From: an uncultured Oscillospiraceae bacterium
GTDB taxonomy: Bacteria > Bacillota > Clostridia > Oscillospirales > Oscillospiraceae
Direction: 5' to 3'
DNA length: 32,801 nt
Assembly (NCBI GenBank): GCA_947623875.1
Contig: CANQII010000008.1
Location: 1 to 32,801, forward strand
Positions 685-28,071 of the stretch are shown here, piece after piece. A program made the translations under genes and the position numbers. The notes beneath the pieces were generated by a model. The model had not been told where the DNA came from and did not search any database. It was given only the letters and a program-made list of their open reading frames with translations. Position 1 is the first letter of the stretch, and each line of letters opens with the position of its first letter.

Positions 685-3600
685 ATGACGAAATTCAGAA
701 AGACCGTAGCAATTCTGCTGGCGTTGGTTTTGGTGCTGTGCACCGGTCTCCCCGCTATGGCGGCGGAGTCCACTGACGCTGCCACCAACACCACAGCGGA
801 CAGCGCAACCACTACCGAGGTTGCAGCTGTCGAGGGCAAGCTTGTCGAAGCGAATAAGTACGGCAACCTGGTCCTGGACATTGACCCGCAAACGATCCTG
901 GACGCCGGATATGAATACGGCGACATCGTAAGCCTGGAGATCAACGGCACCGCCTATGAGATGCCGATGGGCACCAGCTACAGTGATGTAGACGTTGGTT
1001 CCATGGTTCTCTGTGTTGTTCCAGATTCGAAGGATGATGAGGGCAACGATGTGCCTGGCTCTGTTGTCGCCGCCATCAACAAGGGCGACATGGCCTCTAC
1101 CCTTGAGATTGCCGTTAAGGTAGTCGCTGAGGACAAGTCCGTCTCCTGGACCAATAAGGACGGTACTGCGTTTGATCCCAGCACTGTTACAGTGAAGATC
1201 AGTATGGCGGAAAAGGGAGGCTATGCTGCCGAGTACCTGATTCACCAGCTGACCCGCACTAACGTCCGGGACGACTATGCCTCCGATGAGATCTTTGCCA
1301 ACTTCCGTGCGATCCCCAGCGTCCCCGCTGCATACCGCACCAGCAGCCCCGTGAACAACGAACTGGGCCGCGCCGCCTATGCCGATGACCTCATCGAGGC
1401 TGCCGGTGTAAAGGCTGTTCTGAACCTGGCAGATAACGATGAGATGATTAAAGGCTATATCGCTGCCGAAGGTTTTGATTCCCCCTATTACAAGTCCCTC
1501 TTCGAGGCTGGCAAGGTAAAGGCCCTGAATCTGGGCATTGATGAAACTGCTGACGACTACAAGGCTGGCCTGGCAGAAGGTTTCCGCTTCCTGGCTGCCA
1601 ACGAGGGTCCCTATGCCATCCACTGCACCGAGGGCAAGGACCGCGCCGGTTTTGTCTCCGCTCTGCTGGAGTGCCTGATGGGTGCCACCTATCAGAAGGT
1701 AGTTGCAGACTACATGGTGTCCTATGAGAACTACTTCCATGTGGATCCCGAGAAGGACAGCGAGAAGTACAATGCCATCGCTGAGAGCAACATCGTAAAG
1801 ACCCTTGAGACCCTCGCCGGTGAGGATGCCGCCAAGGCTGACCTGGCTGCTGCTGCTGAGACCTATCTGAAGGACATCGGCCTCACCGCAGACGAGATCA
1901 CCGCTCTGAAGACCAACCTGGCTGTGGAAGCTCCCGCCCCTGCTGAGAGCACCGAGCCCGCAGAGAGCACTGCTCCCACTGAGAGCGCTGAGCCCGCTGA
2001 GAGCACCGCTCCTGCTGAGAGTGAAGCCCCCGCTGAGAGCACCGCTCCTGAGGCCTCCGGCAATGTGGTCATCCTGCACTCCAACGACGTCCACGGCGCG
2101 ATTGAAGGCTATGCCACCATGGCCGCTCTGAAGGCGTACTATGAGGCCAAGGGCGATGCCGTCCTCGTGGTAGATGCCGGCGACTATATCCAGGGCACCA
2201 CCTATGTCAGTGAGTCCCAGGGCGCCACTGCCATCGAGCTCATGAACCTGGCCGGCTATGACTTCGCCGCTCTGGGCAACCACGAGTTCGACTATGGCTT
2301 CGAGAACCTGAAGACCATCATGGAGAAGGCCGACTTCCAGGTCCTCTCCGCAAACACCCTCTATGACGGCGCTGCCGCTTTCGGCACCCACGCTGTGGTA
2401 GAGAAGAACGGCGTAAAGATCGGTATCTTCGGCATGGAGACCCCCGAGACCGCCACCAAGGCCCACCCCGCCAAGATCAAGGGCGTGACCTTCTCCTCCA
2501 GCGTTGAGATGTATGCCTGCGCTCAGGCAGAAGTTGCCGCTCTGGAAGCTGAGGGCTGCGACTACATCATCTGCATCGGCCACCTGGGCGTGGATGATGA
2601 GACCGCTACCACCGCCAACCGCTCCATCGACCTGCTGGGCAGCGTCACCGGCATCGATGTGTTCATCGATGGCCACTCCCACAGCACCATCGAGGACATC
2701 GAGGGCAAGATCGGCACCGATACCAACAAGGTGGGCGACACCTATGTGACCTCCACCGGCACCGGATTTAATAACTACGGCGTTGTAACCATCGCCAAGG
2801 ACGGCACCATCACCACCGAGCTGATCTCCAAAGAGGATGCAGCAAAACTCGTAACGCCCGATGAGACCGTGAAGGCCCGCGCTGACGCCATCATGGCAGA
2901 GATCGAGGCCAAGTACGGCGCCACCTTCGCCAAGACCGAAGTTCTGCTGAATGGCGAGCGGGAGCCTGGCAACCGCACCGAAGAGACCAACCTGGGCGAC
3001 CTTATCACCGATGCCATCCTGTGGTCTGCTACCAAGGACGGCGGACTTGAGGTGGACGCAGACCATGTTGTGGCCATCACCAACGGCGGCGGCATCCGTG
3101 CCACCATCGAGGCCGGCGACATCAGCCGCAACGATGTGCACACCGTGCTGCCCTTCGGCAACACCGTGGCCATCGTGTACGTGAAGGGCTCCACCCTTCT
3201 GGAAGTCCTTGAGGCCTCCACTTCCAGCGCACCTGAGGCTCTTGGCGGCTTCCCGCAGGTTGCCGGCATCAACTTCACCGTTGACACCTCTATCCCGTAC
3301 GATCAGGGCGAGCTCTATCCGGGTTCCACCTACTATGCTCCTGCCAGCATCAAGCGTGTCACCATCCAGAGCATTAACGGCCAGCCGTTTGATCCGGATG
3401 CCACCTATGCAGTGGTTACCAACGACTTCTGCGCTGCCGGCGGCGACACCTATTATGCCTTCTCCGTTGCCACTGTGATGGACACTGGCACCGCAATGGA
3501 TGTGGCCCTCATGGACTACATCGAAGAGGAGCTGGACGGCGTTGTCACCGCAGCGGACTACGGTGAGCCCAGAGGCAGCATCACTGTGAGCGCAGCTGCC

Positions 3601-3759
3601 GCCACTGAGCCCGAGCCGGAGACCACTCCCGCTCCCGAGCCGCAGGTTCCTGACGACAACGTCCCGCCCACCGGCGATGTGTCCATGGTCATCTGGTTCG
3701 CTCTGGCCGCCCTGTCCGGCACCGGCCTTGTGGCCACCAAGAAGCGCAAGGAAGACTGA
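685..3759 (+). CDS. Cell-wall-anchored tyrosine phosphatase-like / 5'-nucleotidase fusion
   Basis: 1024 residues. A signal peptide (about 1-26, ending AMAAES) is followed by a segment (about 50-165) that resembles the C-terminal barrel of SAM hydroxide adenosyltransferases (YGNLVLDID at the start). A Y_phosphatase3-type domain (about 170-405) has the loop HCTEGKDRAG with nucleophile Cys314 and Arg320. A Ser/Pro/Glu-rich linker of ESTAP-type repeats (about 413-457) leads to a UshA-like metallophosphatase: NDVHG (Asp468, His470), DAGD (Asp500), GNHE (His533), GHSH (His664, His666) and the nucleotide-binding part NGGGIR (800-805). The end has VPPTGD (993-998), a hydrophobic segment and KKRKED, a variant sortase signal. 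Expected role: surface release of phosphate and nucleosides from nucleotides, perhaps with a second phosphoester substrate. Its own promoter and terminator make it a single-gene unit. The domain calls for nucleotidase and phosphatase are firm; the N-terminal barrel is tentative. Confidence 0.9.
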   Translation: MTKFRKTVAILLALVLVLCTGLPAMAAESTDAATNTTADSATTTEVAAVEGKLVEANKYGNLVLDIDPQTILDAGYEYGDIVSLEINGTAYEMPMGTSYSDVDVGSMVLCVVPDSKDDEGNDVPGSVVAAINKGDMASTLEIAVKVVAEDKSVSWTNKDGTAFDPSTVTVKISMAEKGGYAAEYLIHQLTRTNVRDDYASDEIFANFRAIPSVPAAYRTSSPVNNELGRAAYADDLIEAAGVKAVLNLADNDEMIKGYIAAEGFDSPYYKSLFEAGKVKALNLGIDETADDYKAGLAEGFRFLAANEGPYAIHCTEGKDRAGFVSALLECLMGATYQKVVADYMVSYENYFHVDPEKDSEKYNAIAESNIVKTLETLAGEDAAKADLAAAAETYLKDIGLTADEITALKTNLAVEAPAPAESTEPAESTAPTESAEPAESTAPAESEAPAESTAPEASGNVVILHSNDVHGAIEGYATMAALKAYYEAKGDAVLVVDAGDYIQGTTYVSESQGATAIELMNLAGYDFAALGNHEFDYGFENLKTIMEKADFQVLSANTLYDGAAAFGTHAVVEKNGVKIGIFGMETPETATKAHPAKIKGVTFSSSVEMYACAQAEVAALEAEGCDYIICIGHLGVDDETATTANRSIDLLGSVTGIDVFIDGHSHSTIEDIEGKIGTDTNKVGDTYVTSTGTGFNNYGVVTIAKDGTITTELISKEDAAKLVTPDETVKARADAIMAEIEAKYGATFAKTEVLLNGEREPGNRTEETNLGDLITDAILWSATKDGGLEVDADHVVAITNGGGIRATIEAGDISRNDVHTVLPFGNTVAIVYVKGSTLLEVLEASTSSAPEALGGFPQVAGINFTVDTSIPYDQGELYPGSTYYAPASIKRVTIQSINGQPFDPDATYAVVTNDFCAAGGDTYYAFSVATVMDTGTAMDVALMDYIEEELDGVVTAADYGEPRGSITVSAAAATEPEPETTPAPEPQVPDDNVPPTGDVSMVIWFALAALSGTGLVATKKRKED

Positions 3760-9886: not shown

Positions 9887-9932
9887 AAGAGCGGTTCTTC
9901 CGGACAGCCGGGGGAACCGCTCTTGTGGTTTT
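9887..9932 (+). terminator. Terminator between convergent DUF362 and DUF4261-like genes
   Basis: A 17-bp stem with two G-T wobbles (9887-9903 with 9908-9924) and a 4-base loop ACAG is followed by GTGGTTTT. Confidence 0.75.
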
Positions 9933-10813
9933 CAGGGCTGCTCTGCCAGCGGCGGCTGCTGCCGGGGTGCGGCATACTGTCCTGGGGCGATGTCCAGCAC
10001 CGTGCGGCTGGGTTGGATGATGGCCATCTCCCGCCGGCAGGTCCACTCCACAGCCTCAGAGAGCTGCCCATTTTCCATGCCGTCCACCGTATCCCCGTCC
10101 TGGAAGTCGTCCCCGTACTGGAGGAGAGAGGCGGCCATGGTGTATGCGTGGGCGGCCACCCAGCCGGGGTGCATGGATCTGTAGTGATACTGGAGGTCCG
10201 GAAGGCTGAGAACTTGAAGACCAAGAGTGTCTGTGAGCACGGAGTTCCCGTCCGGCATCTGGAACATCCGCACATTCATGCCGAAGTGGAGAAACCGCTG
10301 GATCCCGGTGAAGGGAGCGTTGCGGATCTGCTCCGGGTGAAAGAGCTTGCCGGAGGAGGGGAAGTACACCGCCTCGCAGGAGGGGAAGAGCTCCAGCAGC
10401 GCCATGAGCCAGTCCATATCCAGCTCTGCCCGCTCCACCGCCGGGAGACCGCCGGCCAGGGCGTCTCCTGCGATCACCTGCCAGCGGCAATTCTGGAGAA
10501 GGGCATCCCGGTCCGGGCAGTCCCACATGTTGGCCCGGACAAAGGCGTCCAGCTTCTCCCCCTGGAAGGGCATGCAAGGGGAGAGGGAGAGCACCACCGA
10601 GGAGAAGTTGTCCTGGAAGCGGGCCACATGCTCCCTTGCCAGGAAGGACTGGGCGTTCTCATCCTGGCTGGCCGCCTCTACCTTCCCAATGTGCTTTTCC
10701 AGGACGGAGAGTGCCTGCTTCTGGTCCGGTTGGGGGATTTTGTTCTGGAAGAGCAGTTGGATGGGGAAGGGACCGCCTGGGCGGAGGGATTTCTCTTGTG
10801 CTGGACGGGGCAT
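9932..10813 (-). CDS. DUF4261-like hypothetical protein
   Basis: 293 residues from ATG 10813 (MPRPAQEKSL), chosen because AAAGGAGC lies 7 bases upstream; a longer frame to 10885 lacks a ribosome site. No signal peptide or membrane segment. The pattern GIQRFLHFGMNVRMF, then VLTDTLGLQVLSLPDLQYHY (about 190-228), resembles DUF4261 proteins, which have a conserved TxGL-x-LPDLQ segment. The N-terminal half (FQDNFSSVVLSLSPCMPFQG) also fits that family's beta start. The role of DUF4261 is unknown. The gene has its own strand between two other units, so context says little. Confidence 0.6.
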   Translation of the reverse strand: MPRPAQEKSLRPGGPFPIQLLFQNKIPQPDQKQALSVLEKHIGKVEAASQDENAQSFLAREHVARFQDNFSSVVLSLSPCMPFQGEKLDAFVRANMWDCPDRDALLQNCRWQVIAGDALAGGLPAVERAELDMDWLMALLELFPSCEAVYFPSSGKLFHPEQIRNAPFTGIQRFLHFGMNVRMFQMPDGNSVLTDTLGLQVLSLPDLQYHYRSMHPGWVAAHAYTMAASLLQYGDDFQDGDTVDGMENGQLSEAVEWTCRREMAIIQPSRTVLDIAPGQYAAPRQQPPLAEQP

Positions 10814-10883
10814 GGACAGGGCTCCTTTCGGGAACTTGTTTTGGCATATGGTACCACAGAAGGACTGCTGATGCAAGAGAGGC

Positions 10884-10916
10884 AAAAAGCCTCCCCCGCC
10901 GGGCGGCGGGGGAGGC
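10884..10916 (-). terminator. Terminator of the oxoacid oxidoreductase operon
   Basis: A perfect 12-bp GC-rich stem (10889-10900 with 10905-10916) and a 4-base loop are followed on the minus strand by TTTTT (10888-10884). It lies 18 bases after the beta-subunit stop. Confidence 0.9.
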
Positions 10917-11869: not shown

Positions 11870-13070
11870 TGCCCAGGACCTCCTCTTTGGCGCTGCGCTG
11901 GCCCATGTGGATGTACCGGGGGCCAACTTCGCCGGTCTCAACGATTTTCAGCAGATAGCGGTATACCCGCTCCACGTCCTGCACCGCGCAGTCCCGGCCG
12001 GCCAGGCCGTACACCACATCGATCATCTTGGGGGGATTGGGCAGATCATAGCAAGCGGAGCGCACCTCGGCAAAGAGGGGGCCGCCGGCTGCGGAATAGC
12101 CTTCGCTCTTGTCCATCACGGCCACGGCCTTCACATGGGACAGGGCGGCGGCGATCTCCTCGAAGGGGAAGGGGCGGAACACACGGATCTTTACGAGACC
12201 CGCCTTGATTCCCTGGCTGCGGAGGTCTTCGATGCAGGCCTTGGCGGTGCCGGCGGTGGAGCCGATGAGCACCAGAGCCACCTCGGCGTCCTCCATGCGG
12301 TATTCCTCGAAGAAGCCGTACTTCCGGCCGAAGGTCTTCTCAAAGTCCGCCGCCACGTCCAGAATGGCCCGCTTGGCGTTCTTCATGGCCTCTGCCTGCT
12401 GCACCTTGTGCTCCATGCAGTAGGGGGAGTTGTCGTAAGGACCCACGGCGAGAGGATGATCCCGGCCCATGAGGGCGTGCTCGGGATGATACTCCCCTAC
12501 GAAGGCCTTTACCGCCGCATCCTCTTCCAGCAGAATGTTCTCCACGGCGTGGGAGGTGATGAAGCCGTCCTGGCACACCATGATGGGCAGGCGGACATCC
12601 GGAGTCTCGGAGATGCGCATGGCCTGGAGGTAGTTGTCGTAGGCCTCCTGGTTGTTCTCGGCGTAGATCTGGATCCAGCCGGAGTCCCGGGCGCCCATGG
12701 AGTCCGAGTGGTCGTTGTTGATGTTGATAGGGCCGGTGAGGGTGCGGTTCACGCAGGCCAGGGTGATGGGCAGCCGGCTGGAGGCGGCCACATACAGGAC
12801 CTCGTACATGAAGGCGAGACCGGCGGAAGACGTGGCGGTTACGGCCCGGCAGCCGGCAGCGGAGGCGCCGATACAGGTGGACATGGAGGAGTGCTCAGAC
12901 TCCACCGTGACGTACTCGGTGTCCACCTGGCCGTTGGCCACATACTGGGCGAAGTACTGGGGGATCTCCGTGGAGGGTGTGATGGGGAAGGCTGCAAAGA
13001 CGTCCGGGTTGATCTGGCGCATGGCGTAGGCCACTGCCTCGTTGCCGGACAGGCGCTCGCGGATGCTCAT
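11859..13070 (-). CDS. porA: 2-oxoacid:ferredoxin oxidoreductase, alpha subunit
   Basis: 403 residues from ATG 13070, which overlaps the delta stop as ATGA. The N-terminal pyrimidine-type domain has NEAVAYAMRQINPDVFAAFP, ITPSTEIPQYFAQ, the ESEHSSMS segment and TATSSAGLAFMYEVLY, all conserved in PorA/VorA. It continues with the NRTLTGPININNDHSDSMG loop and QDGFITSH, and ends with the transketolase C-terminal type domain (VALVLIGSTAGTAKACI, LVKIRVFRPFPFEEIAAAL). It forms the active site with the beta subunit. Length is typical for the four-subunit enzyme rather than for the fused single-chain pyruvate synthase. Confidence 0.9.
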   Translation of the reverse strand: MSIRERLSGNEAVAYAMRQINPDVFAAFPITPSTEIPQYFAQYVANGQVDTEYVTVESEHSSMSTCIGASAAGCRAVTATSSAGLAFMYEVLYVAASSRLPITLACVNRTLTGPININNDHSDSMGARDSGWIQIYAENNQEAYDNYLQAMRISETPDVRLPIMVCQDGFITSHAVENILLEEDAAVKAFVGEYHPEHALMGRDHPLAVGPYDNSPYCMEHKVQQAEAMKNAKRAILDVAADFEKTFGRKYGFFEEYRMEDAEVALVLIGSTAGTAKACIEDLRSQGIKAGLVKIRVFRPFPFEEIAAALSHVKAVAVMDKSEGYSAAGGPLFAEVRSACYDLPNPPKMIDVVYGLAGRDCAVQDVERVYRYLLKIVETGEVGPRYIHMGQRSAKEEVLGNGL

Positions 13071-13378
13071 TGGTGCACCTCCTGTTCCATGCGGATGGCC
13101 TTGAAGGGACATACCTTGGCGCAGATGCCGCAGCCCTTGCAGTGGTCCAGGTCAAAGTCCAGGCGCTTGCCATCCTTCACGGGGATGGAGGAGTCCGGGC
13201 AGAAGGGGGCGCACAACAGGCACTGGCGGCAGAGGGCGGAGTTCCAGGCGGGACGGTTTACCCGCCACTGACCGGTGAGGGTGAGCTTGGAGGTGCCGCC
13301 CTCGTAGATCTCTCCGCCGGGAGTGAGACCCTGCCAGGGGGTCTTCTCATTGATGTCTTTTGCTTGGATGTAGCTCAT
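13067..13378 (-). CDS. porD: 2-oxoacid:ferredoxin oxidoreductase, delta subunit (2x 4Fe-4S ferredoxin)
   Basis: 103 residues from ATG 13378, overlapping the gamma stop as ATGA. Two ferredoxin motifs are complete: CRQCLLCAPFCP and CKGCGICAKVCP, each supplying ligands for a 4Fe-4S cluster. The start MSYIQAKDINEKTPWQGLT is typical of PorD. It carries electrons from the catalytic alpha-beta pair to external ferredoxin. Confidence 0.9.
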   Translation of the reverse strand: MSYIQAKDINEKTPWQGLTPGGEIYEGGTSKLTLTGQWRVNRPAWNSALCRQCLLCAPFCPDSSIPVKDGKRLDFDLDHCKGCGICAKVCPFKAIRMEQEVHQ

Positions 13379-13974: not shown

Positions 13975-14012
13975 AAAAGAAAAAGCGTCCGCCCCTGGTC
14001 AGGGACGGACGC
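13975..14012 (-). terminator. T-box regulatory terminator
   Basis: A 12-bp stem with one mismatch (14012-14001 with 13996-13985) is followed on the minus strand by TTTTTCTTTT. It competes with the antiterminator formed by the T-box sequence just upstream. Confidence 0.85.
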
Positions 14013-14241
14013 CAGAATAGACAGCCGTTATACCACCCAAAACCTGCGTACCAACATACGCACTCCCGGTAACGGGGGAAGCCGTCAGCGTCTACTCCGC
14101 CTCATTGCGCGTTTTGGGCTGAAACTCCGGAGTGATCTTCAGGCAGGTCTCTGGATACCGGCTTTCCACCAGCTGCCGGCTCTCTGAATCCTTGACGGGC
14201 CCTACTGTCTCCATCACTGTTTTTACAGGGGTCTGAACTTG
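13975..14241 (-). promoter_or_regulatory. T-box riboswitch leader, specifier probably ATC (Ile)
   Basis: Reading the minus strand: the specifier-loop 5' strand has GGAG (14212-14209) and AGTA (14206-14203); the apical part of stem I (14191-14153) has the AGAGAGCCGG and GGTGGAAAGCCGG type motifs; the 3' strand has GAAG, then ATC (14136-14134), one A, then CTCC (14132-14129), which pairs with GGAG. The T-box sequence GGGTGGTATAACGG is at 14038-14025 and a terminator follows. Uncharged tRNA should bind the specifier and, with its CCA end, the T-box bulge, and so favour antitermination. The purine-then-CTCC rule gives ATC (Ile). Reading the triplet straight after GAA gives GAT (Asp); I consider this less likely. 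Confidence 0.85.
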
Positions 14242-14247
14242 GGCGGT

Positions 14248-14276
14248 AGTATATAAAATGAGGCGGAGAAAGTCAA
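14248..14276 (-). promoter_or_regulatory. Promoter of the T-box-controlled operon
   Basis: TTGACT (14276-14271), 17 bases, TATACT (14253-14248). Transcription would start near 14241, giving a leader of about 285 bases, as usual for a T-box. Confidence 0.85.
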
Positions 14277-14338: not shown

Positions 14339-15241
14339 TCAGGGGGTGCCGGACACAATCCAGGGCGCAGGCTCGGTGTCGAAGGTGTTTTTGCCCGGAT
14401 TCAGCTTGCTGACGCTGATCTGGATCACCTCCGTCTCCCGGAAGCCGTACTTCTCCAGAAGCTCCGGCAGGGAGGCGGCGCAGCGGAAGTCCAGGGTGTA
14501 GATCACGATCTCCATCTGGGGGTTCAGCTTGCGGAGGCACTCGATCTCCTGCTCCATGCTGGCGGAGGCCACGAGGAAGGTGAGGGAGGGGATCGGCAGG
14601 TTCTTCAGGTTCTCCTCCGAGACCTTGTCGATGACGGTGATGTTGTTGAGGCCGAACTTCTCCGCGTTCTCCTCTACGGTGCGCCGGTCCTCCTGGCTGT
14701 ACTCCACCGCGATGACAGTCCCCTCCGGGGCCACCATGGCGGACTCCACGGCGATGCTGGCGCCGCTGACGATGCAGACGGTGTCCTGGGCTCCCAGGTG
14801 CATCTTGTTGAGAATCACGGCCCGGATCTCGCTGCCCACATAGCGGACGGTGCCCCGGATGAAGTCCGAGTTGCGCATGCCGATCTTATAGGTGGAGCGG
14901 GCATTGGGGTTCAGGATCAGCATGGCGGCGCTGGCGTTGATGCCCCGGTTGATCATGTTCCGCACCGGCGTGTGGAGGATGGGTCCCGTGGGATCGGAGC
15001 CCTCGTTGTACCAGACCTCGCAGTCTCCCAGGCCCGCATTCCACATGCGGTAGAAGATGTCCGGGTGGCCGGCCTCGGTGAAGACCAGCACCGCATGGTG
15101 GGACTCCACCATGGGGATCAGGTTCTTGTTCTTGCGGGTGATGTCCAGCAGGCGGACCCGCTCCAGGTCGATGTGCATGTTGTCTGCATAGTACTGCAGC
15201 CATGCCAGGATGTGACTGTTGTTAAAGATATGATTTTCCAT
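14339..15241 (-). CDS. Orphan CbiE/CbiT-like (precorrin methylase-like) protein
   Basis: 300 residues, third gene after the flavoprotein and hydrolase genes (12-base gap). The C-terminal part (about 120-300) follows the plan of precorrin-6B/CbiT methyltransferases: EIRAVILNKM, a Rossmann start, GTVIAVEYSQEDRRTVEENA and KFGLNNITVIDKVSEENL. The SAM motif I, normally DxGxGxG, is here CIVSGASIAVES, so cofactor binding may be weakened or lost. The N-terminal part (ESHHAVLVFTEAGHPDIFYR) faintly resembles the CbiE tetrapyrrole methylase fold, as in CobL. No other cobalamin gene is in the window. The family call is moderate and activity on precorrin is not supported by context. Confidence 0.6.
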   Translation of the reverse strand: MENHIFNNSHILAWLQYYADNMHIDLERVRLLDITRKNKNLIPMVESHHAVLVFTEAGHPDIFYRMWNAGLGDCEVWYNEGSDPTGPILHTPVRNMINRGINASAAMLILNPNARSTYKIGMRNSDFIRGTVRYVGSEIRAVILNKMHLGAQDTVCIVSGASIAVESAMVAPEGTVIAVEYSQEDRRTVEENAEKFGLNNITVIDKVSEENLKNLPIPSLTFLVASASMEQEIECLRKLNPQMEIVIYTLDFRCAASLPELLEKYGFRETEVIQISVSKLNPGKNTFDTEPAPWIVSGTP

Positions 15242-21186: not shown

Positions 21187-21230
21187 CAGTTCTTTGAAAT
21201 GCAAAAGATGGAGAAATAAAGCCATAGTAC

Positions 21231-21250
21231 ATCTACTAAATTCTGTAGAT
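21231..21250. promoter_or_regulatory. Inverted repeat upstream of araA, possible operator
   Basis: ATCTAC (21231-21236) and GTAGAT (21245-21250) flank TAAATTCT, with looser symmetry outward (GTAC on the left, GTGC on the right). It lies about 85 bases before the araA start, where an arabinose repressor could bind. It does not clearly match the Bacillus AraR site. Confidence 0.4.
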
Positions 21251-21334
21251 TGTGCAATTTTTAACGATCTATCCTGCGGCTTACCTGCGTGCCTCGCATG
21301 CAGCAGCGCAATCATTGCAAGGAGTACGATACAT

Positions 21335-22804
21335 ATGGGAAAACATGAATTCTGGTTTGTCGTAGGCTCTCAATTCCTCTATGGCCCTGAAGTCCTGGAG
21401 ACCGTAGAGGCCCGGGCAAAGGAGATGGCAGAGAAGCTCAGCGCTGTGCTGCCCCATCCCCTGGTGTTCAAGACCATCGGCGTCACCTGCCAGGGCATCG
21501 AGGACGTCATCCGCGAGGCCAACTACAGCAATGACTGCGCCGGCATCGTGACCTGGTGCCACACCTTCTCCCCCAGCAAGATGTGGATCAACGGCCTGAC
21601 CAAGCTCCAGAAGCCCTGGTGCCACCTGGCCACTCAGTACAACCGGGAGATCCCCAACGAGGAGATCGACATGGACTTCATGAACCTGAACCAGGCCGCC
21701 CACGGTGACCGGGAGCACGGCTTCATCGGTGCCCGTCTCCGCATGCCGAGAAAGGTCATTGCCGGGTACTGGGAGGACGCCAAGGTCCAGAAGCGCCTGG
21801 CAGACTGGATGAAGGCCGCCGTTGGCGTAGACGTGTCCCGCCACATGAAGGTCATGCGGTTCGGAGACAACATGCGGGAAGTAGCCGTCACCGAGGGCGA
21901 CAAGGTGGAAGTTCAGGCCAAGCTCGGCTGGCAGGTGAACACCTGGGCCGTGGGCGATCTGGTGAAAGAGATGAACGCTGTCACCGAGGCCGAGGTAGAT
22001 GAGCTCATGGCCGTCTATGAGGCCAACTACGACATCGCCACGGACAACATCGCCGCCATCCGCTATCAGGCACGGGAAGAGATCGCCATGAAGAAGATGA
22101 TGGACGCCGAGGGCTGCAAGGCCTTCTCCAACACCTTCCAGGATCTCTACGGCATGGAGCAGCTGCCCGGCCTGGCCTCCCAGCACCTGATGGCCCAGGG
22201 CTACGGCTACGGCGGCGAGGGCGACTGGAAGGTCTCCGCCATGACTGCCATTCTGAAGGCCATGGGCGAGAACGGCAACGGCGCCTCCGCCTTCATGGAA
22301 GACTACACCTATCACCTGGTGGAAGGCCAGGAGTACTCCCTAGGCGCCCACATGCTGGAGGTCTGCCCCTCTGTGGCAGCCGGCAAGCCCCGGATCGAGA
22401 CCCACCACCTGGGCATCGGCATGAACGAGAAGGATCCCGCGAGACTGGTGTTCGAGGGCAAAGAGGGCGACGCCATTGTGGCCTCTCTCATCGATGTGGG
22501 CGGGCGGCTCCGTCTCATCGTCCAGGACATCCACTGCGTCAAGCCCATCATGCCTATGCCCAACCTGCCGGTGGCCCGGGTCATGTGGCAGGCCATGCCG
22601 GACCTCACCACCGGCGTGGAGTGCTGGATCACCGCCGGCGGCGCCCACCACACCGTGCTGAGCTACGACGTCACCGCCGAGATGATGAAGGACTGGGCCC
22701 GGATGATGGACATCGAGTTTGTCCACATCACCAAGGATTCCACCCCGGACGCCCTGGAGAAGGAGCTCTTCCTCAACGATCTGGCTTGGAACCTGAAGCG
22801 CTAA
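21335..22804 (+). CDS. araA: L-arabinose isomerase
   Basis: 489 residues, close to the usual 475-500. ATG 21335 is preceded by AAGGAG (21319-21324). The family start (HEFWFVVGSQFLYGPEVLE) and VTWCHTFSPSKMWI, QYNREIP and GEGDWKVSAMTAILKAM are all present. The metal ligands expected for AraA can be placed: Glu in FMEDYTYHL, the EVCPSVAAGKPRIETHHLGI segment with a His, and a late His in GGAHHTVLSYD. It converts L-arabinose to L-ribulose in the cytoplasm, first step of the arabinose pathway. It heads a run with two secreted GH43 genes (93-base gap). The long non-coding stretch before it is unusual. Confidence 0.96.
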   Translation: MGKHEFWFVVGSQFLYGPEVLETVEARAKEMAEKLSAVLPHPLVFKTIGVTCQGIEDVIREANYSNDCAGIVTWCHTFSPSKMWINGLTKLQKPWCHLATQYNREIPNEEIDMDFMNLNQAAHGDREHGFIGARLRMPRKVIAGYWEDAKVQKRLADWMKAAVGVDVSRHMKVMRFGDNMREVAVTEGDKVEVQAKLGWQVNTWAVGDLVKEMNAVTEAEVDELMAVYEANYDIATDNIAAIRYQAREEIAMKKMMDAEGCKAFSNTFQDLYGMEQLPGLASQHLMAQGYGYGGEGDWKVSAMTAILKAMGENGNGASAFMEDYTYHLVEGQEYSLGAHMLEVCPSVAAGKPRIETHHLGIGMNEKDPARLVFEGKEGDAIVASLIDVGGRLRLIVQDIHCVKPIMPMPNLPVARVMWQAMPDLTTGVECWITAGGAHHTVLSYDVTAEMMKDWARMMDIEFVHITKDSTPDALEKELFLNDLAWNLKR

Positions 22805-22897
22805 TTCTCATCTGAGAACAGAAATACAACGCAGCCCCTAGAGACAGAGAGTTTGGGATCACAACCGACAGACAGTTCGATAGGAGGAGCAAACAGA

Positions 22898-24523
22898 ATG
22901 AGAAAATGGATCGCCCTTGTCCTTGCATTGACCCTTTTATTCTCCCTGGCGGCCTGCGGCGGCGACTCGGGAAGTAATGCAACCCAGCCCCCAGCCGACA
23001 GCGAGAACGTCACCCCAACGGAAGCCCCTGAGCAATCCGAGCCGCCGGCCCCGGAGGAGACACCGGCACCCATCCCGGTGGAGCTGGAGATCAGCGCCGA
23101 GGCCAACCCCCTGGTGGGTTTTGACGGCGACGGCAACCTGACCTACGGCGGCGACCCCGCTGCCCTGGTGGTGGACGACACTCTGTACCTGTATGTGGGC
23201 CATGACGTGGCCACCAACGAGGCATACAACATTCCGGAGTACCTCTGCTACTCCACCAAAGACCTGCAGAACTGGACCTATGAGGGCGTGGCCCTCAGCA
23301 TGGCAGACGTGTCCTGGGGCACCAAGGACGCCGCCTGGGCTTCCCAGTGCGCCCGCCACTACAGCGAGGCGGAGGGCAAGGACATGTACTACCTGTACAC
23401 CTGCTCCTGGGACACCACAGACTCCGGCAAACAGTCCATCGGCGTGGCGGTGTCCGACAGCCCCACCGGCCCCTTCGTAGACATCGGCGTCCCCATTGTG
23501 AAGGGCTCCTTCACCACCGATGAGACCTCCGGCTGGAACGACATCGACCCCACTGTCTGGATCGAGACCGATGAGAACGGGGAAGAGCACCGCTACCTCT
23601 GCTGGGGCAACGGCAAGGTCTATATCTGCGAGCTGAACGAGGACATGATCTCCGTCAAGGACTATGACGGCGATGGCCAGATCCTCTTCGGTACCGATAT
23701 CCGCAGCAAGCACACCCCGGACGGCTACACCGAGGCCCCCTGGCTGTACCGCCAGAAGGACGAAGACGGCAACTACTACGGCAATTACTACCTCTTCTAT
23801 GCCCACGGCTGGCGGGAGGATATGGCCTACGCCATCCTGGACGGCGATGACCTGATGAATGATGATTTCTTCTATGAGGAGACCATCATGGAGCACTCTG
23901 CCACCTCCAACACCAACCACATGGCGGTGGTGGACTTCCTGGGCAAGACCTGGTTCATCTACCACAACGGCTCTCTACCCCACGGCAGCGGCTTCCGGCG
24001 GGTGGCCTGCATCGAGGAGCTCAAGTTCGATGAGGACGGCTATGTGCAGCACATGGAGGAGACCGCATCCGGCCCCTTCGGTACAGCCTCCACCATCACC
24101 GCCCTGAACGGGGAAGTGCTCCAGCACGCACCCTTCAAGAACTCCGGCGCCGATGACGACTACCCCTACAAGGACATCGCCCTGGGCACCTTCGATGACG
24201 CCGCAGACCTGGATGGGCAGTGGGTGATCCTGGCCGGCAAGGCCAGCCCCAATGACCCCTACACTGTGTCCATCGTCTCTCAGAATAAAGCCGGCCTCTA
24301 CATCTCTGCAAACGAGGCAGGCGTGTATCTGAGCCAGGACTGGGATGGCTATCAGAGCAATTCCATGACCTTCAAGACCGTAAGCGGTCTCGCCGGGGAA
24401 GGGGTCTCCTTCGAGTGCGTGACCATGCCGGGACAGTATCTGACCCTCTCCGGCGGCAAGTTGTCTGTCTCTGATGGGACAGACGCCCAGGCGGCCAGCT
24501 TTGTGGTTGCCCCGGTGCAGTAG
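22898..24523 (+). CDS. Secreted GH43 lipoprotein with CBM42-like arabinose-binding domain
   Basis: 541 residues from ATG 22898 with AGGAGGAG 8 bases upstream. A lipoprotein signal peptide ends in the lipobox LAAC (Cys about residue 21), followed by a Pro/Glu-rich spacer to about 65. The GH43 five-blade propeller has catalytic Asp86 (GGDPAALVVD), Asp217 (WNDIDPTVW) and Glu279 (YTEAPWL). Residues about 440-541 resemble AbfB/CBM42, which binds arabinofuranose side chains (KAGLYISANEAGVYLSQDWD, MPGQYLTL, AASFVVAP). The likely activity is alpha-L-arabinofuranosidase or a related debranching enzyme at the cell surface. The gene belongs with araA and the next GH43 gene. Exact linkage specificity cannot be read. 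Confidence 0.9.
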   Translation: MRKWIALVLALTLLFSLAACGGDSGSNATQPPADSENVTPTEAPEQSEPPAPEETPAPIPVELEISAEANPLVGFDGDGNLTYGGDPAALVVDDTLYLYVGHDVATNEAYNIPEYLCYSTKDLQNWTYEGVALSMADVSWGTKDAAWASQCARHYSEAEGKDMYYLYTCSWDTTDSGKQSIGVAVSDSPTGPFVDIGVPIVKGSFTTDETSGWNDIDPTVWIETDENGEEHRYLCWGNGKVYICELNEDMISVKDYDGDGQILFGTDIRSKHTPDGYTEAPWLYRQKDEDGNYYGNYYLFYAHGWREDMAYAILDGDDLMNDDFFYEETIMEHSATSNTNHMAVVDFLGKTWFIYHNGSLPHGSGFRRVACIEELKFDEDGYVQHMEETASGPFGTASTITALNGEVLQHAPFKNSGADDDYPYKDIALGTFDDAADLDGQWVILAGKASPNDPYTVSIVSQNKAGLYISANEAGVYLSQDWDGYQSNSMTFKTVSGLAGEGVSFECVTMPGQYLTLSGGKLSVSDGTDAQAASFVVAPVQ

Positions 24524-24595
24524 CGCCTTTCATTCTGCAACAGAGCGGAATTGTGAGAGAATACACAAAATCTTCCATTGGAAAGGAGCTCAGGT

Positions 24596-26224
24596 ATGAA
24601 AAGAAGAGTCTTATCTCTGGTGCTGACCCTCGCCATGCTGCTGGTGCTCCTGGCAGGCTGCGGCGGAGGCGGAGAATCCACCCCCACCGATGCCCCAACC
24701 CAGGACCCCGCCACCCAAGCGCCGGCGACTGAGGCACCGGAGGCCACAGATCCCCCTGCTGATGACGGCCGGGACTACGACTTCAACGCGGACATCAGCG
24801 CGTATCCCACAGCGAACATCTCTTCCCAGGGTGTGGGCGTACACGACCCCTCCATCCTGCGGGTGGGCGACACCTACTACATCTACGGCTCTCACATGGC
24901 CTCTGCCAAGAGCACAGACCTGTTCCACTGGGAGCGGATGTCCGATGGATACAGCGCCGGCAACCCGATTTTCGGTGCCATCTACGACAAGTATGACGAG
25001 GCCTTCGCCTATACCGGCACCACAGAGAGCATCATCCCCACCACCGGCAGCGATGCTGTGTGGGCTCCGGATGTGAAGTACAACGAGACGTTGGGCAAGT
25101 ACGTGATGTACTACTGCACCTCCTCCACCTTCAACGCATCCAACCTCTGCTACGCCTTCTCCGACACCCCGGACGGCAACTTCGAGTGGCAGGGCGCTTT
25201 GATCTACTCCGGTTTTGATGCGGACACCATCCAGTACACCAATGTGCTGGATTATGTGGACGAGGAGACCGCGCTGTCCCGCTATGTGAAGGGCAAGAGC
25301 GGCTACAAGTTTGAGGAGTGGCCCAACGCCATTGACCCCACCTGGTTCACCGATGCAGACGGGAAAGACTGGCTGGTGTACGGCTCCTGGTCCGGCGGCA
25401 TCTTCCTGCTGGAGATCGACCCGACTACGGGCCTTGTGATCCACCCCGAGGACGACCCGGAGAACGATGTAGATGCCTACTTCGGCAAGAAGCTTGTGGG
25501 CGGCGGCCATGAGTCCATGGAGGCCCCCTACATCCTCTACGACGCTGAGAGCCAGTATTACTACCTCTACGTCTCGTACGGCAGCCTGAACCGGGAGGGC
25601 GGCTATCAGATCCGCGTCTTCCGCAGCGAGAATCCGGACGGCCCGTATGTGGACATGAACGGGATGAATCTGGGCGCCAACCTGGACAACTCCCAGTATG
25701 GCCTGAAGCTCTCCGGCAACTACATGCTGCCCAGTCTGAAGGTGGGTTACATGGCCACCGGCCACAACTCCGCCTTCATCGACAACGACGGCAAGCGCTA
25801 CATCGTCTATCACACTCGGTTTGACGCCGGCAATGAGACCCACTCCCCCAGGGTGCACCAGTATCTGCTGAATGAGGACGGCTGGCCCTGCATGCTGCCC
25901 TATCAGACCCAGGGCGAGACGGTGGGTACTTACACCGAGGAAGATGTGATCGGACGCTGGTTCTACGTGAATCAGGGGACCTACATCAGCGCCACCATCG
26001 CCCAGCCCATCGTGATGTATCTGAACGATGATCACACGGTGAAGGTGATCGACGAGGACGGCACCTGGTCCATGGATCCCGACACCCACTTTATCACCAT
26101 CACCCTCTCCAACAAGGAGTACAAGGGCGTCCTCTGTGCCATGAAGGATGAGGCCGGCACCGACTGCATGACCTTCTCCGTGGTGGGGCAGAACGCCAGC
26201 CTCTGGGGAGTGAAGTACGAATGA
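24596..26224 (+). CDS. Secreted GH43 lipoprotein, endo-arabinanase type
   Basis: 542 residues from ATG 24596 with AAAGGAG upstream. A signal peptide with lipobox LAGC (Cys about 22) and a Thr/Pro/Ala spacer precede the GH43 propeller: Asp84 (VHDPSIL), Asp247 (NAIDPTW) and Glu309 (SMEAPYI). HSPRVHQYLLNEDGWPCMLP and the following beta domain (VIGRWFYVNQG...) match the C-terminal domain of arabinan endo-1,5-alpha-L-arabinosidases. It would cut the arabinan backbone outside the cell into oligomers for the importer. Its stop overlaps the start of the small membrane gene by ATGA. Confidence 0.9.
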   Translation: MKRRVLSLVLTLAMLLVLLAGCGGGGESTPTDAPTQDPATQAPATEAPEATDPPADDGRDYDFNADISAYPTANISSQGVGVHDPSILRVGDTYYIYGSHMASAKSTDLFHWERMSDGYSAGNPIFGAIYDKYDEAFAYTGTTESIIPTTGSDAVWAPDVKYNETLGKYVMYYCTSSTFNASNLCYAFSDTPDGNFEWQGALIYSGFDADTIQYTNVLDYVDEETALSRYVKGKSGYKFEEWPNAIDPTWFTDADGKDWLVYGSWSGGIFLLEIDPTTGLVIHPEDDPENDVDAYFGKKLVGGGHESMEAPYILYDAESQYYYLYVSYGSLNREGGYQIRVFRSENPDGPYVDMNGMNLGANLDNSQYGLKLSGNYMLPSLKVGYMATGHNSAFIDNDGKRYIVYHTRFDAGNETHSPRVHQYLLNEDGWPCMLPYQTQGETVGTYTEEDVIGRWFYVNQGTYISATIAQPIVMYLNDDHTVKVIDEDGTWSMDPDTHFITITLSNKEYKGVLCAMKDEAGTDCMTFSVVGQNASLWGVKYE

Positions 26225-26613
26225 ATCCGGAGGAATTGAGTCCGGAGATGCGCAAGCTGCTGTTCGGGGTAGACGTGGTAGACGATGAACCCACTGCAGT
26301 AGAGCCCATCACCAAGAAGCGGCGGAGGAAGCTCCACGAGATGCCGGGCTTCCGGAGACGCCACAACTCCTACTACGCCGGCATGTCCAAGAAGCAGATC
26401 GCCGTAGACACCGCCAAGACCACTGCCCAGTGGGTGGGCGGCACGGTATTCTTCTTCTTCTACTGGCTGGCCATGCTGCTGATCTTCTCCTTGCTGCTCC
26501 TCAGCTACTGGCATGTGAAGATCCTCACCCTCATCATCGCGTCCGCCGTACTGGCAGTGATCAGCTCCCTGATCTACGGCTACGTGCTGGTCCACCGAAA
26601 GTTCTACTACTGA
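26221..26613 (+). CDS. Small two-helix membrane protein, unknown function
   Basis: 130 residues. Its ATG overlaps the TGA of the GH43 gene (ATGA), so it is translated with it. A hydrophilic, basic N-terminal half (KKRRRKLHEMPGFRRRHNSY) is followed by two hydrophobic helices (about 68-95 and 98-122) and the end VLVHRKFYY. I do not recognise a family. Coupling to a secreted lipoprotein enzyme suggests a membrane or export role, but this is inference. Confidence 0.65.
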   Translation: MNPEELSPEMRKLLFGVDVVDDEPTAVEPITKKRRRKLHEMPGFRRRHNSYYAGMSKKQIAVDTAKTTAQWVGGTVFFFFYWLAMLLIFSLLLLSYWHVKILTLIIASAVLAVISSLIYGYVLVHRKFYY

Positions 26614-26660
26614 GCAAAAAAAGACAAACCGCCGTCTCGGATGAGACGTGCGGCTTGTCT
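26614..26660 (-). terminator. Terminator of the intracellular GH43 gene
   Basis: An interrupted stem (26622-26640 with 26645-26660: AGACAA/TTGTCT, CCGC/GCGG, GTCTC/GAGAC) is followed on the minus strand by TTTTTTT (26621-26615). It may also halt the plus-strand genes that converge here. Confidence 0.8.
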
Positions 26661-26689
26661 CGTAAGGATTCGAAAGGGGAGGGCAGGCG

Positions 26690-28009
26690 TCACTTCGTTA
26701 TCAGCTTTCCCCACACCGCCTGGTCCCTCTGGTCCAGGCCGGTGAGGCAGAGGCAGCTGCCTCCGTTCTCCAGGTCCGGCGCCGTATGTACCACGCAGCG
26801 CTGGAAGAGGGGATCGGTGGCGGAGAGGTGACAAACCTCAGATCGCTTCTGACTCCCATCCAGGTAATCGAAGTGGATGAGCTCCCACTCCCCGGTCTTC
26901 GGCTGCTGGGGCGTCAGGTCCTGACCACCGAAGGGCTCCGGGGAGAGCACCGGCCAGCCGTCCACGAAGTACATAGGGCGCACTGTCATGTAGAACCGGC
27001 GGAAGGACAGTCTACCGTCCCGCTCCCGTTTGCGGTTCACCTTGGACCCGTCCCGCATGTGGTGGACGAAGAACCAGGCGTTCCGCTGGGGGTCTAAGAA
27101 GGGGACTCCGTGACCCGGACCCCGGATGCCGCCCCAGCTCCAGCCCGCATCCGTATTGCCTACGGCAGGGGACTTGGCCCGGAACTGATAGCTTCCGGCC
27201 AGCTTCTCGCCTAACGTCTCTCCCCGGAGGTCCCGGCCGTGCCGGTCCAGATAGGGTCCGGCAGGGGAGGTGCTCCGGCCCACCCGGATGTCGTAGGTGT
27301 CCCCCAGCCAACCATAGGACTGGAACAGGTAAAAGTAGCCTGTCTCCGGGACAAAGGTTGCGGCGGGGCCCTCCGGTCCATCGATGAGGACGGGATCGGA
27401 CTTGTGGGAGATGCAGGTGCCCAGATCTTTGGGTTTCCCGTTAAGGGGCAGGCCAGTGGCAGGGTCCAGCTCCTTCAAAAAGATCCCGCCGAAGAAAGAG
27501 CCGTACACCAGATACACCCGATTTCCGTCCCGAAGGATGTGGGGATCGATGGCATTGGGGTAGGTGTCATCCGTACCCCAGGTGTCTGCCACAACCCCAC
27601 GGTTTTCAAATGGTCCCTGGGGCTGGGAGGCCACCGCCAGCCAGATCCGGGACTCGGAGCTTCCAAAAGCCCGAGTGGCGGCGTAGTACATGTGGTACTC
27701 GCCATTGGCGTACTCCACAAAGGGAGCCCAGAAACTTCTGGTCTTCTGAAACATGGGGCCGTTGTCCTGGCCCTGGAGCACCGCTTCCTGGGAGAGGGCC
27801 GTGCCGTGATACTGCCAGGTGACGAGATCGTCTGAGGACCGCACCGGGATGCCGATGACGTCCTGGACACCCAGAATTGGCCCGTAGGCATCGGTGCAGT
27901 ACGACCAGTACTTCCGGGATACCGGATCCCACATCATCCCGGGATCATGGGCTCCCGCCACCGGATTGCGGTGGATGTCATACTCATTGAGAAGCAGAGG
28001 AACTTGCAT
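26690..28009 (-). CDS. Intracellular GH43 arabinan/arabino-oligosaccharide hydrolase
   Basis: 439 residues from ATG 28009, chosen because GAAGGAAA lies just upstream and MQVPLLLNEYDIHRNPV is a normal start; there is no signal peptide, unlike the two neighbours. The GH43 residues are Asp22 (AGAHDPGMM), Asp155 (NAIDPHIL) and Glu213 (GPEGPAATF). PHIL, LVYGSFFGGIF and GPGHGVPFLDPQRNAWFFVH fit the endo-arabinanase branch. It would break down imported arabino-oligomers in the cytoplasm. It is transcribed against the other genes, from its own promoter. Confidence 0.88.
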   Translation of the reverse strand: MQVPLLLNEYDIHRNPVAGAHDPGMMWDPVSRKYWSYCTDAYGPILGVQDVIGIPVRSSDDLVTWQYHGTALSQEAVLQGQDNGPMFQKTRSFWAPFVEYANGEYHMYYAATRAFGSSESRIWLAVASQPQGPFENRGVVADTWGTDDTYPNAIDPHILRDGNRVYLVYGSFFGGIFLKELDPATGLPLNGKPKDLGTCISHKSDPVLIDGPEGPAATFVPETGYFYLFQSYGWLGDTYDIRVGRSTSPAGPYLDRHGRDLRGETLGEKLAGSYQFRAKSPAVGNTDAGWSWGGIRGPGHGVPFLDPQRNAWFFVHHMRDGSKVNRKRERDGRLSFRRFYMTVRPMYFVDGWPVLSPEPFGGQDLTPQQPKTGEWELIHFDYLDGSQKRSEVCHLSATDPLFQRCVVHTAPDLENGGSCLCLTGLDQRDQAVWGKLITK

Positions 28010-28071
28010 TGAAATTTCCTTCTTTCGAGGATCCGCCTTGTGTTGAGACGGCGAATTGGTTCGGGGCATGA

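Follow-up and report, generated by a model that had tools for sequence, protein, structure and literature searches.

T-box leaders are already well described (PMC3766115, PMC2494555), as is the formation of isoleucine from 2-methylbutyrate (PMC2812497, PMC10658910). Reductive carboxylation of 2-methylbutyrate is given as the probable route to isoleucine in a rumen methanogen, in a paper that also points to Robinson and Allison 1969 on rumen anaerobes (PMC2812497); that anaerobic bacteria can make isoleucine in this way has been known for decades. A study of a methanogenic digester counts 2-methylbutyrate among the fatty acids that fermentation yields as by-products (PMC7382037). The reaction that we propose here is the same as in the rumen anaerobes and methanogens, although the relevant passages of that literature name no genes in Clostridia. 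The locus described below differs from the usual T-box targets in that the leader stands before an oxidoreductase operon and not before a synthetase, a classic biosynthesis gene or a transporter. No paper in the literature searched connects an isoleucine T-box with a four-subunit oxidoreductase, although the T-box surveys of Vitreschak 2008 and Gutierrez-Preciado 2009 may list such a case; the words ‘ferredoxin’, ‘oxidoreductase’ and ‘pyruvate’ have no occurrences in the main text of Wels et al. 2008.

The window, the whole stretch of 32,801 nucleotides that was analysed, is contig C8 of a 3.53 Mb genome (G000) that is 74.9% complete and consists of 392 contigs. To judge from its sequence it almost certainly carries a transcriptional T-box of the isoleucine type, with specifier AUC, directly upstream of a porGDAB-type operon (Table 1).

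Table 1. Features of the T-box-porGDAB locus, in window coordinates
Feature	Position	Strand	Basis or remark
CbiT-like protein of unknown role	14339..15241	-	recurs at por loci
Sigma-70-like promoter, TTGACT-17-TATACT	14248..14276	-	10/12 positions; 1 found against 0.1 (sd 0.4) in shuffles
T-box leader (Stem I, Stem II, IIA/B, Stem III, antiterminator)	13998..14226	-	RF00230; own model R1, 199 bits at 14002-14227
Specifier triplet AUC (Ile), in GAA-G-AUC-A	14134..14136	-	covariance alignment and sequence
UGGU of T-box core	14032..14035	-	could pair with ACCA of the tRNA 3′ end
Antiterminator, GGG...CGG with CCGUCCC	14002..14038	-	covariance alignment; mutually exclusive with terminator
Intrinsic terminator, 13 pairs, loop of 4, U-rich tail	13975..14013 (hairpin 14013-13984)	-	-25.6 kcal/mol, z -6.4
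porG-type gamma subunit, 193 aa	13375..13956	-	TIGR02175, 199 bits (cut-off 81); PF01558
porD-type delta subunit, 4Fe-4S ferredoxin	13067..13378	-	TIGR02179, 92 bits (cut-off 60); start set at the ATG overlapping the porG stop
porA-type alpha subunit, 403 aa	11859..13070	-	PF01855, PF17147; PorA_Arch, 469 bits (cut-off 550 missed)
porB-type beta subunit, 311 aa	10934..11869	-	PF02775; PorB, 349 bits (cut-off 405 missed)

Anatomy and structure of the leader

A targeted Rfam scan matched the leader to the full length of the T-box model RF00230 (model positions 1-219) with 84.0 bits and an E-value of 7.6e-19, which falls below the curated gathering score of 93, and a scan of the whole window at gathering thresholds accordingly returned no match. 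The sub-threshold score means little, because 8 of the 12 T-boxes in the same genome (the window leader included) likewise score less than 93 bits, among them the leaders of tyrS, trpB and an Asp/Asn-tRNA ligase. That the missed threshold signifies no T-box at all is ruled out by the targeted scan together with 43 other loci. In common with ileS T-box leaders, which belong to the transcription-attenuation class of RF00230, the leader has the full model match, the AUC triplet, the T-box core and an antiterminator opposed to a terminator.

The antiterminator pairs of the RF00230 model occupy the 5′ arm of the terminator. Across 29 sequences the two helices of the antiterminator are 95% and 91% paired, and two short helices show poor conservation, at 32% and 12% of cells. 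The Rfam structure covaries in these 29 relatives, with 23 two-sided pair changes, a value reached by 0 of 500 shuffles (16.1, sd 1.9), and with a covariation score of 0.238 compared with 0.044-0.109 for slid versions of the same structure; further pair types show no excess in the 29 leaders (51 against 50.0 in shuffles). The last U of UGGU is kept in 40 of the 44 listed por leaders under a strict pattern, which leaves the other four unmatched. We presume that tRNA-Ile carries A73, giving it an ACCA end opposite UGGU in the window leader.

Folded alone, the whole leader has a stability z of -1.45, not clearly beyond shuffles, and neither Stem I (z +0.60) nor the antiterminator (z +0.47) shows excess stability, so that the terminator alone stands out. 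Unaided, RNAalifold misses the antiterminator and pairs the specifier region with the T-box core, mostly through unvarying pairs. What supports the structure assigned to the leader is the Rfam model, together with the covariation of its pairs.

Specifier conservation and T-box wiring in relatives

A single scan of GTDB genomes supplied relatives of the alpha subunit, the best 80 of 557 confirmed being used, and genomes of the same genus were added. The upstream region was unreadable at four of the best 80 loci (L074, L076, L110 and L136), and the leader lies before porG in 40 of the 76 readable named relatives. Leader and enzyme occur together in four genomes of the window's genus, namely its own, G012, G004 and G030; in G016 the homologue sits at a contig end. 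All 44 listed por leaders (40 among the best 80 of 557 and the four from the genus) have AUC as specifier, with a varying base before it (A in 17, U in 15, G in 9 and C in 3), and the arrangement of isoleucine T-box and porGDAB recurs across several families of Bacillota. Our leader model, R1, was built from 29 of these leaders, which match it by construction; the matches of the other 15 do not arise in this way.

The other 36 of the 76 readable relatives among the best 80 of 557 have no full T-box, and 20 of them are Lachnospiraceae. Counted here is L132, with a leader remnant of 61 bits: a natural decayed leader before por (L132:3058-3188) from which most of Stem I and the specifier have gone and whose core reads GGCGG, the terminator and the gene being kept. 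The possibility that T-box presence marks one clade was rejected, as a quick tree needs 10 changes, at least 5 of them forced by starred branches, or 8 changes when unread rows and outgroups are left out.

Read in the same way elsewhere, the specifier fitted the downstream gene in all 34 T-boxes that could be checked (19/19 of a set of 21 and 15/15 of a set of 19). The first set comprises valS (GUG and GUC), leuA (CUG and CUC), glyS (GGC), ilvB (GUC), tyrS (UAC), trpB (UGG), an Asp/Asn-tRNA ligase (AAC), thrS (ACC), cysE-cysS (UGC), metS (AUG) and six ileS leaders (AUC); in both sets the genes were named by eye from translated N-termini, for tyrS and some pheS from the second ORF. Among 13 additional T-boxes none of the well-read ones conflicts with its gene; no gene was read for L180, and poor local alignment underlies the triplets of L173, L174, L177 and L181. 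The last of these (L181:1526-1760; G060:C5, Agathobaculum desmolans) was read as AUC before a gene that by eye is a brnQ-type branched-chain amino acid transporter. A pattern search for tRNA-Ile(GAU) found it in 0 of 6 genomes, the pattern probably being too strict, and a tRNA scan of 11 loci gave no tRNA-Ile. The original prediction had placed a complete leader, with promoter, stem I motifs, T-box sequence and terminator, directly upstream of porGDAB-type genes and had given it a probable isoleucine specifier. The leader is confirmed by the full-length RF00230 match, the promoter and the terminator, and the specifier by the position of AUC in the specifier loop, its constancy among the listed leaders and the agreement of the read-out controls.

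Searching with R1 we found 10 T-boxes in G012, 9 in G030 and 10 in G004, lists that may be incomplete because the model finds 9 of the 12 Rfam T-boxes of G000. Within these lists AUC occurs only before ileS and por. GUC precedes ilvBNC in G012 and G030 (the GUC leader of G004 lies at a contig end, its gene unread), CUG precedes leuA, and GUG or GUC precedes valS; no T-box was found at ilvA in G000 or G012. This division between isoleucine and valine wiring belongs to the genus of the window and does not hold everywhere, because G074 has an isoleucine T-box also before an ilvE-ilvB operon and G072 possibly has one before ilvD.

Leaders of the por type were then sought in 291 genomes of the class (E <= 1e-38, with stricter filters), which yielded 27 matches. 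Besides the window's own por leader, 22 of the 26 matches precede ileS and none por; the por leader is thus uncommon in the class and looks related to ileS leaders. Within the genus of the window the ileS leaders score 77-90 bits with our leader model, compared with 194-201 bits for the por leaders. Two high-scoring leaders containing GAAUAUCCC (L208 and L223) precede genes that by eye are methyltransferase-like and transporter-binding-protein-like.

Proposed mechanism and substrate

Since the switch names the amino acid, the pathway of the enzyme is indicated without prior biochemistry, and the por enzyme is likely to serve isoleucine formation. We infer the response to tRNA, the direction of the reaction and the substrate from a leader whose anatomy, specifier, conservation and wiring are read directly. 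Under isoleucine shortage, uncharged tRNA-Ile(GAU) would pair with AUC in Stem I and, through its ACCA end, with UGGU, stabilising the antiterminator so that the terminator hairpin would not form and porGDAB would be expressed. PorGDAB would run in the reductive direction, joining an acyl-CoA and CO2 with reduced ferredoxin to give a 2-oxo acid of the isoleucine pathway, the most likely reaction being 2-methylbutyryl-CoA to 3-methyl-2-oxopentanoate, which a transaminase would convert to isoleucine. Such a route would act as a salvage beside the ordinary ilv route. We consider it probable that the explanation holds as a whole, with an isoleucine T-box switching on a PorGDAB that carboxylates, most likely, 2-methylbutyryl-CoA for isoleucine salvage; taken separately, the identification of 2-methylbutyryl-CoA as the substrate is somewhat favoured.

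In G207, another genome of the window's class, an isoleucine T-box (141 bits, AUC) precedes genes for a cupin/HTH protein and for an AMP-forming acyl-CoA ligase (L230:12968-15314, minus strand; G207:C40). The closest solved relative of this ligase is 3etc with 638 bits, the next scoring 339, and its nearest NCBIfam model is that of the acyl-CoA synthetase MbcS with 394 bits, short of the cut-off of 850. The 3ETC enzyme, MacsMa of Methanosarcina acetivorans, is described as preferring 2-methylbutyrate (PMC10455477). MacsMa and MbcS are the closest relatives of a ligase from another genome than that of the window, and by homology this ligase would perform the activation required by the 2-methylbutyrate route, placed under the same type of switch. 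L049 (G047:C29) also has, beside an oxidoreductase gamma-like gene, homologues of both G207 proteins, the cupin/HTH protein and the ligase, at 40-42%.

A source of 2-oxobutyrate is present in all 11 T-box-por genomes tested (IlvA in eight, CimA in three). Of the 44 listed T-box-por genomes 38 have ilvC, the other six being MAGs or genomes whose completeness is unknown, and so do 23 of the 25 por genomes without a T-box that were tested. A role for the enzyme in filling a missing ilv pathway was rejected on these ilvC counts. With other sources of isoleucine precursors present, por would be a second route and no pathway gap demands the enzyme. Among the recurrent gene clusters at the best 80 of 557 loci, neither an acyl-CoA ligase nor an ilv gene recurs beside por.

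Of the alternatives, the one that survives best is a 2-oxobutyrate synthase, in which propionyl-CoA would be carboxylated to 2-oxobutyrate and passed through IlvB, IlvC and IlvD to isoleucine, the T-box controlling an entry that replaces ilvA. The retention of ilvC in most of the listed genomes fits this reading, and isoleucine control of the committed step would make sense where a shared ilvBNC is under valine. It is nevertheless unlikely, as IlvA or CimA already supplies every tested genome and, of the four class leaders that precede neither por nor ileS, one stands before the ligase nearest to a 2-methylbutyrate enzyme; another of the four, before a methyltransferase-like gene, is uninformative between 2-oxobutyrate and 2-methylbutyrate.

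A switch of this kind could help to put right the ‘pyruvate’ annotations of many genomes from gut and rumen, and it predicts cross-feeding in which protein fermenters release 2-methylbutyrate to T-box-por bacteria. Several record titles of T-box-por hosts, among the matches listed, cite rabbit, rumen or other gut sources. The findings suggest that the por enzyme serves some anaerobic bacteria, many of them inhabitants of animal guts, for building isoleucine, with a scavenged branched fatty acid as the probable starting material.

The oxidoreductase and neighbouring genes

All four subunits are present with their TPP, domain II and 4Fe-4S domains, and profile matches for gamma, delta, alpha and beta establish the predicted four-subunit 2-oxoacid:ferredoxin oxidoreductase. 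The enzyme has the same subunit make-up as the solved PorGDAB 9bt4 (alpha E 8e-86, beta E 2e-79) and differs from it in lying below the curated alpha and beta cut-offs, in having INxDHSD in place of IWNDHQD, and in its isoleucine T-box. A close gamma subunit (70-98%) was found in 4 of 36 other genomes of the same genus, the rest giving weak matches, many of them through the one-chain pyruvate:ferredoxin oxidoreductase (PFOR), or none.

Could it be an ordinary pyruvate synthase or oxidase, placed under an isoleucine T-box since pyruvate feeds the branched-chain amino acids? Its top profile scores are to pyruvate models, its nearest solved structure, 9bt4, is a four-subunit pyruvate enzyme, and an arginine is kept that aligns with the one we take to bind substrate in the one-chain pyruvate enzyme. 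Against this, both alpha (469 bits against 550) and beta (349 against 405) miss the equivalog cut-offs for pyruvate:ferredoxin oxidoreductase. A one-chain PFOR is present as well in 9 of the 11 T-box-por genomes, the Syntrophomonas genomes G071 and G072 being without it; it lies in pieces on separate contigs in G004 and G030, and in G000 the match spans 2-816 of 1167. In the nine window-genus genomes tested CimA, with which pyruvate would become a direct precursor of isoleucine, scored below its cut-off.

The active-site region also sets the family apart. After the conserved arginine, 79 of the 82 alpha ORFs listed carry the motif PININxD(H/Y)SD and two carry PINIHNDHSD, the remaining one being a paralogue in L113 with DHQD. 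The solved pyruvate enzymes have IWNDHQD (9bt4), IFGDHQD (1b0p and 7plm) or IFGDHAD (6cin), and the oxalate enzyme has FGEEHTD. The alpha motif is thus unlike the four solved pyruvate sequences and may help to set specificity. That the T-box marks an isoleucine-specific subfamily by this motif was rejected; since INxD(H/Y)SD is common to members with and without a T-box, it is not a marker of an isoleucine-specific form. In an 88-row tree made by a quick method, a long starred branch splits 85 family members from 9bt4, 5c4i and the L113 paralogue. The comparators were one solved four-subunit pyruvate enzyme (9bt4) and the oxalate enzyme, both far from the family, and with such long outgroup branches the tree says that the family is distinct and not which substrate it uses. 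Taken with the missed cut-offs and the separate PFOR, these differences make the pyruvate reading quite improbable.

A catabolic role, in which the enzyme would oxidise branched-chain 2-oxo acids to acyl-CoA with the T-box acting indirectly, is very improbable: enzymes of this superfamily carry out such oxidations in amino acid fermenters, and T-box-free members do occur in Dethiosulfatibacter aminovorans and Fusibacter, but the leader is conserved in 44 listed loci and a T-box switches on when charged tRNA-Ile is scarce, the wrong moment for burning an isoleucine precursor.

The proposed isoleucine salvage calls for a substrate of the kind used by 2-oxoisovalerate (VOR, branched-chain) oxidoreductases, yet the 2-ketoisovalerate models NF006232 (alpha, 327 bits) and NF008818 (beta, 286 bits) score below their cut-offs and below the pyruvate models. 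The original prediction was that the enzyme may serve branched-chain oxoacid synthesis (isoleucine) and not, or not only, pyruvate oxidation, which would change its annotation to 2-oxoisovalerate/3-methyl-2-oxovalerate oxidoreductase. Its isoleucine role stands as the best reading, given the isoleucine wiring, the separate PFOR, the missed cut-offs and the motif, with a substrate that we can name as likely only; the name 2-oxoisovalerate oxidoreductase finds no support, as the valine triplets read occur at ilvBNC and valS and not at por, and the 2-ketoisovalerate models rank below the pyruvate ones.

The CbiT-like protein encoded 5′ of the leader is found in 48 of 84 listed por loci, in 45 of the 48 beside por on the same strand, both with and without a T-box. 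It is about 300 amino acids long, has no Pfam match over cut-off, and is CbiT-like in its C-terminal half, with a glycine-rich loop two residues shorter than that of 3e05. In Lachnospiraceae and Syntrophomonadaceae its gene is mostly found 3′ of porB; Oscillospiraceae and their kin mostly have it 5′ of the leader. We put forward tentatively a tRNA-Ile-controlled salvage of environmental 2-methylbutyrate that would combine a MacsMa/MbcS-type ligase, a dedicated 3-methyl-2-oxopentanoate synthase (porGDAB) and the CbiT-like protein as a fifth component.

Downstream of porB a DUF4261 protein (9932-10885, minus strand) was absent from the searched stretches of G004, G030 and G016 and present in G012 at 81%. 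Elsewhere in the window, positions 21194-28069 hold arabinose genes, which encode L-arabinose isomerase and a pair of GH43 proteins; genes for an ABC permease and its sugar-binding protein lie further on. An ORF of 1024 amino acids at 685-3756 on the plus strand combines a tyrosine-phosphatase-like domain with a metallophosphatase/5′-nucleotidase.
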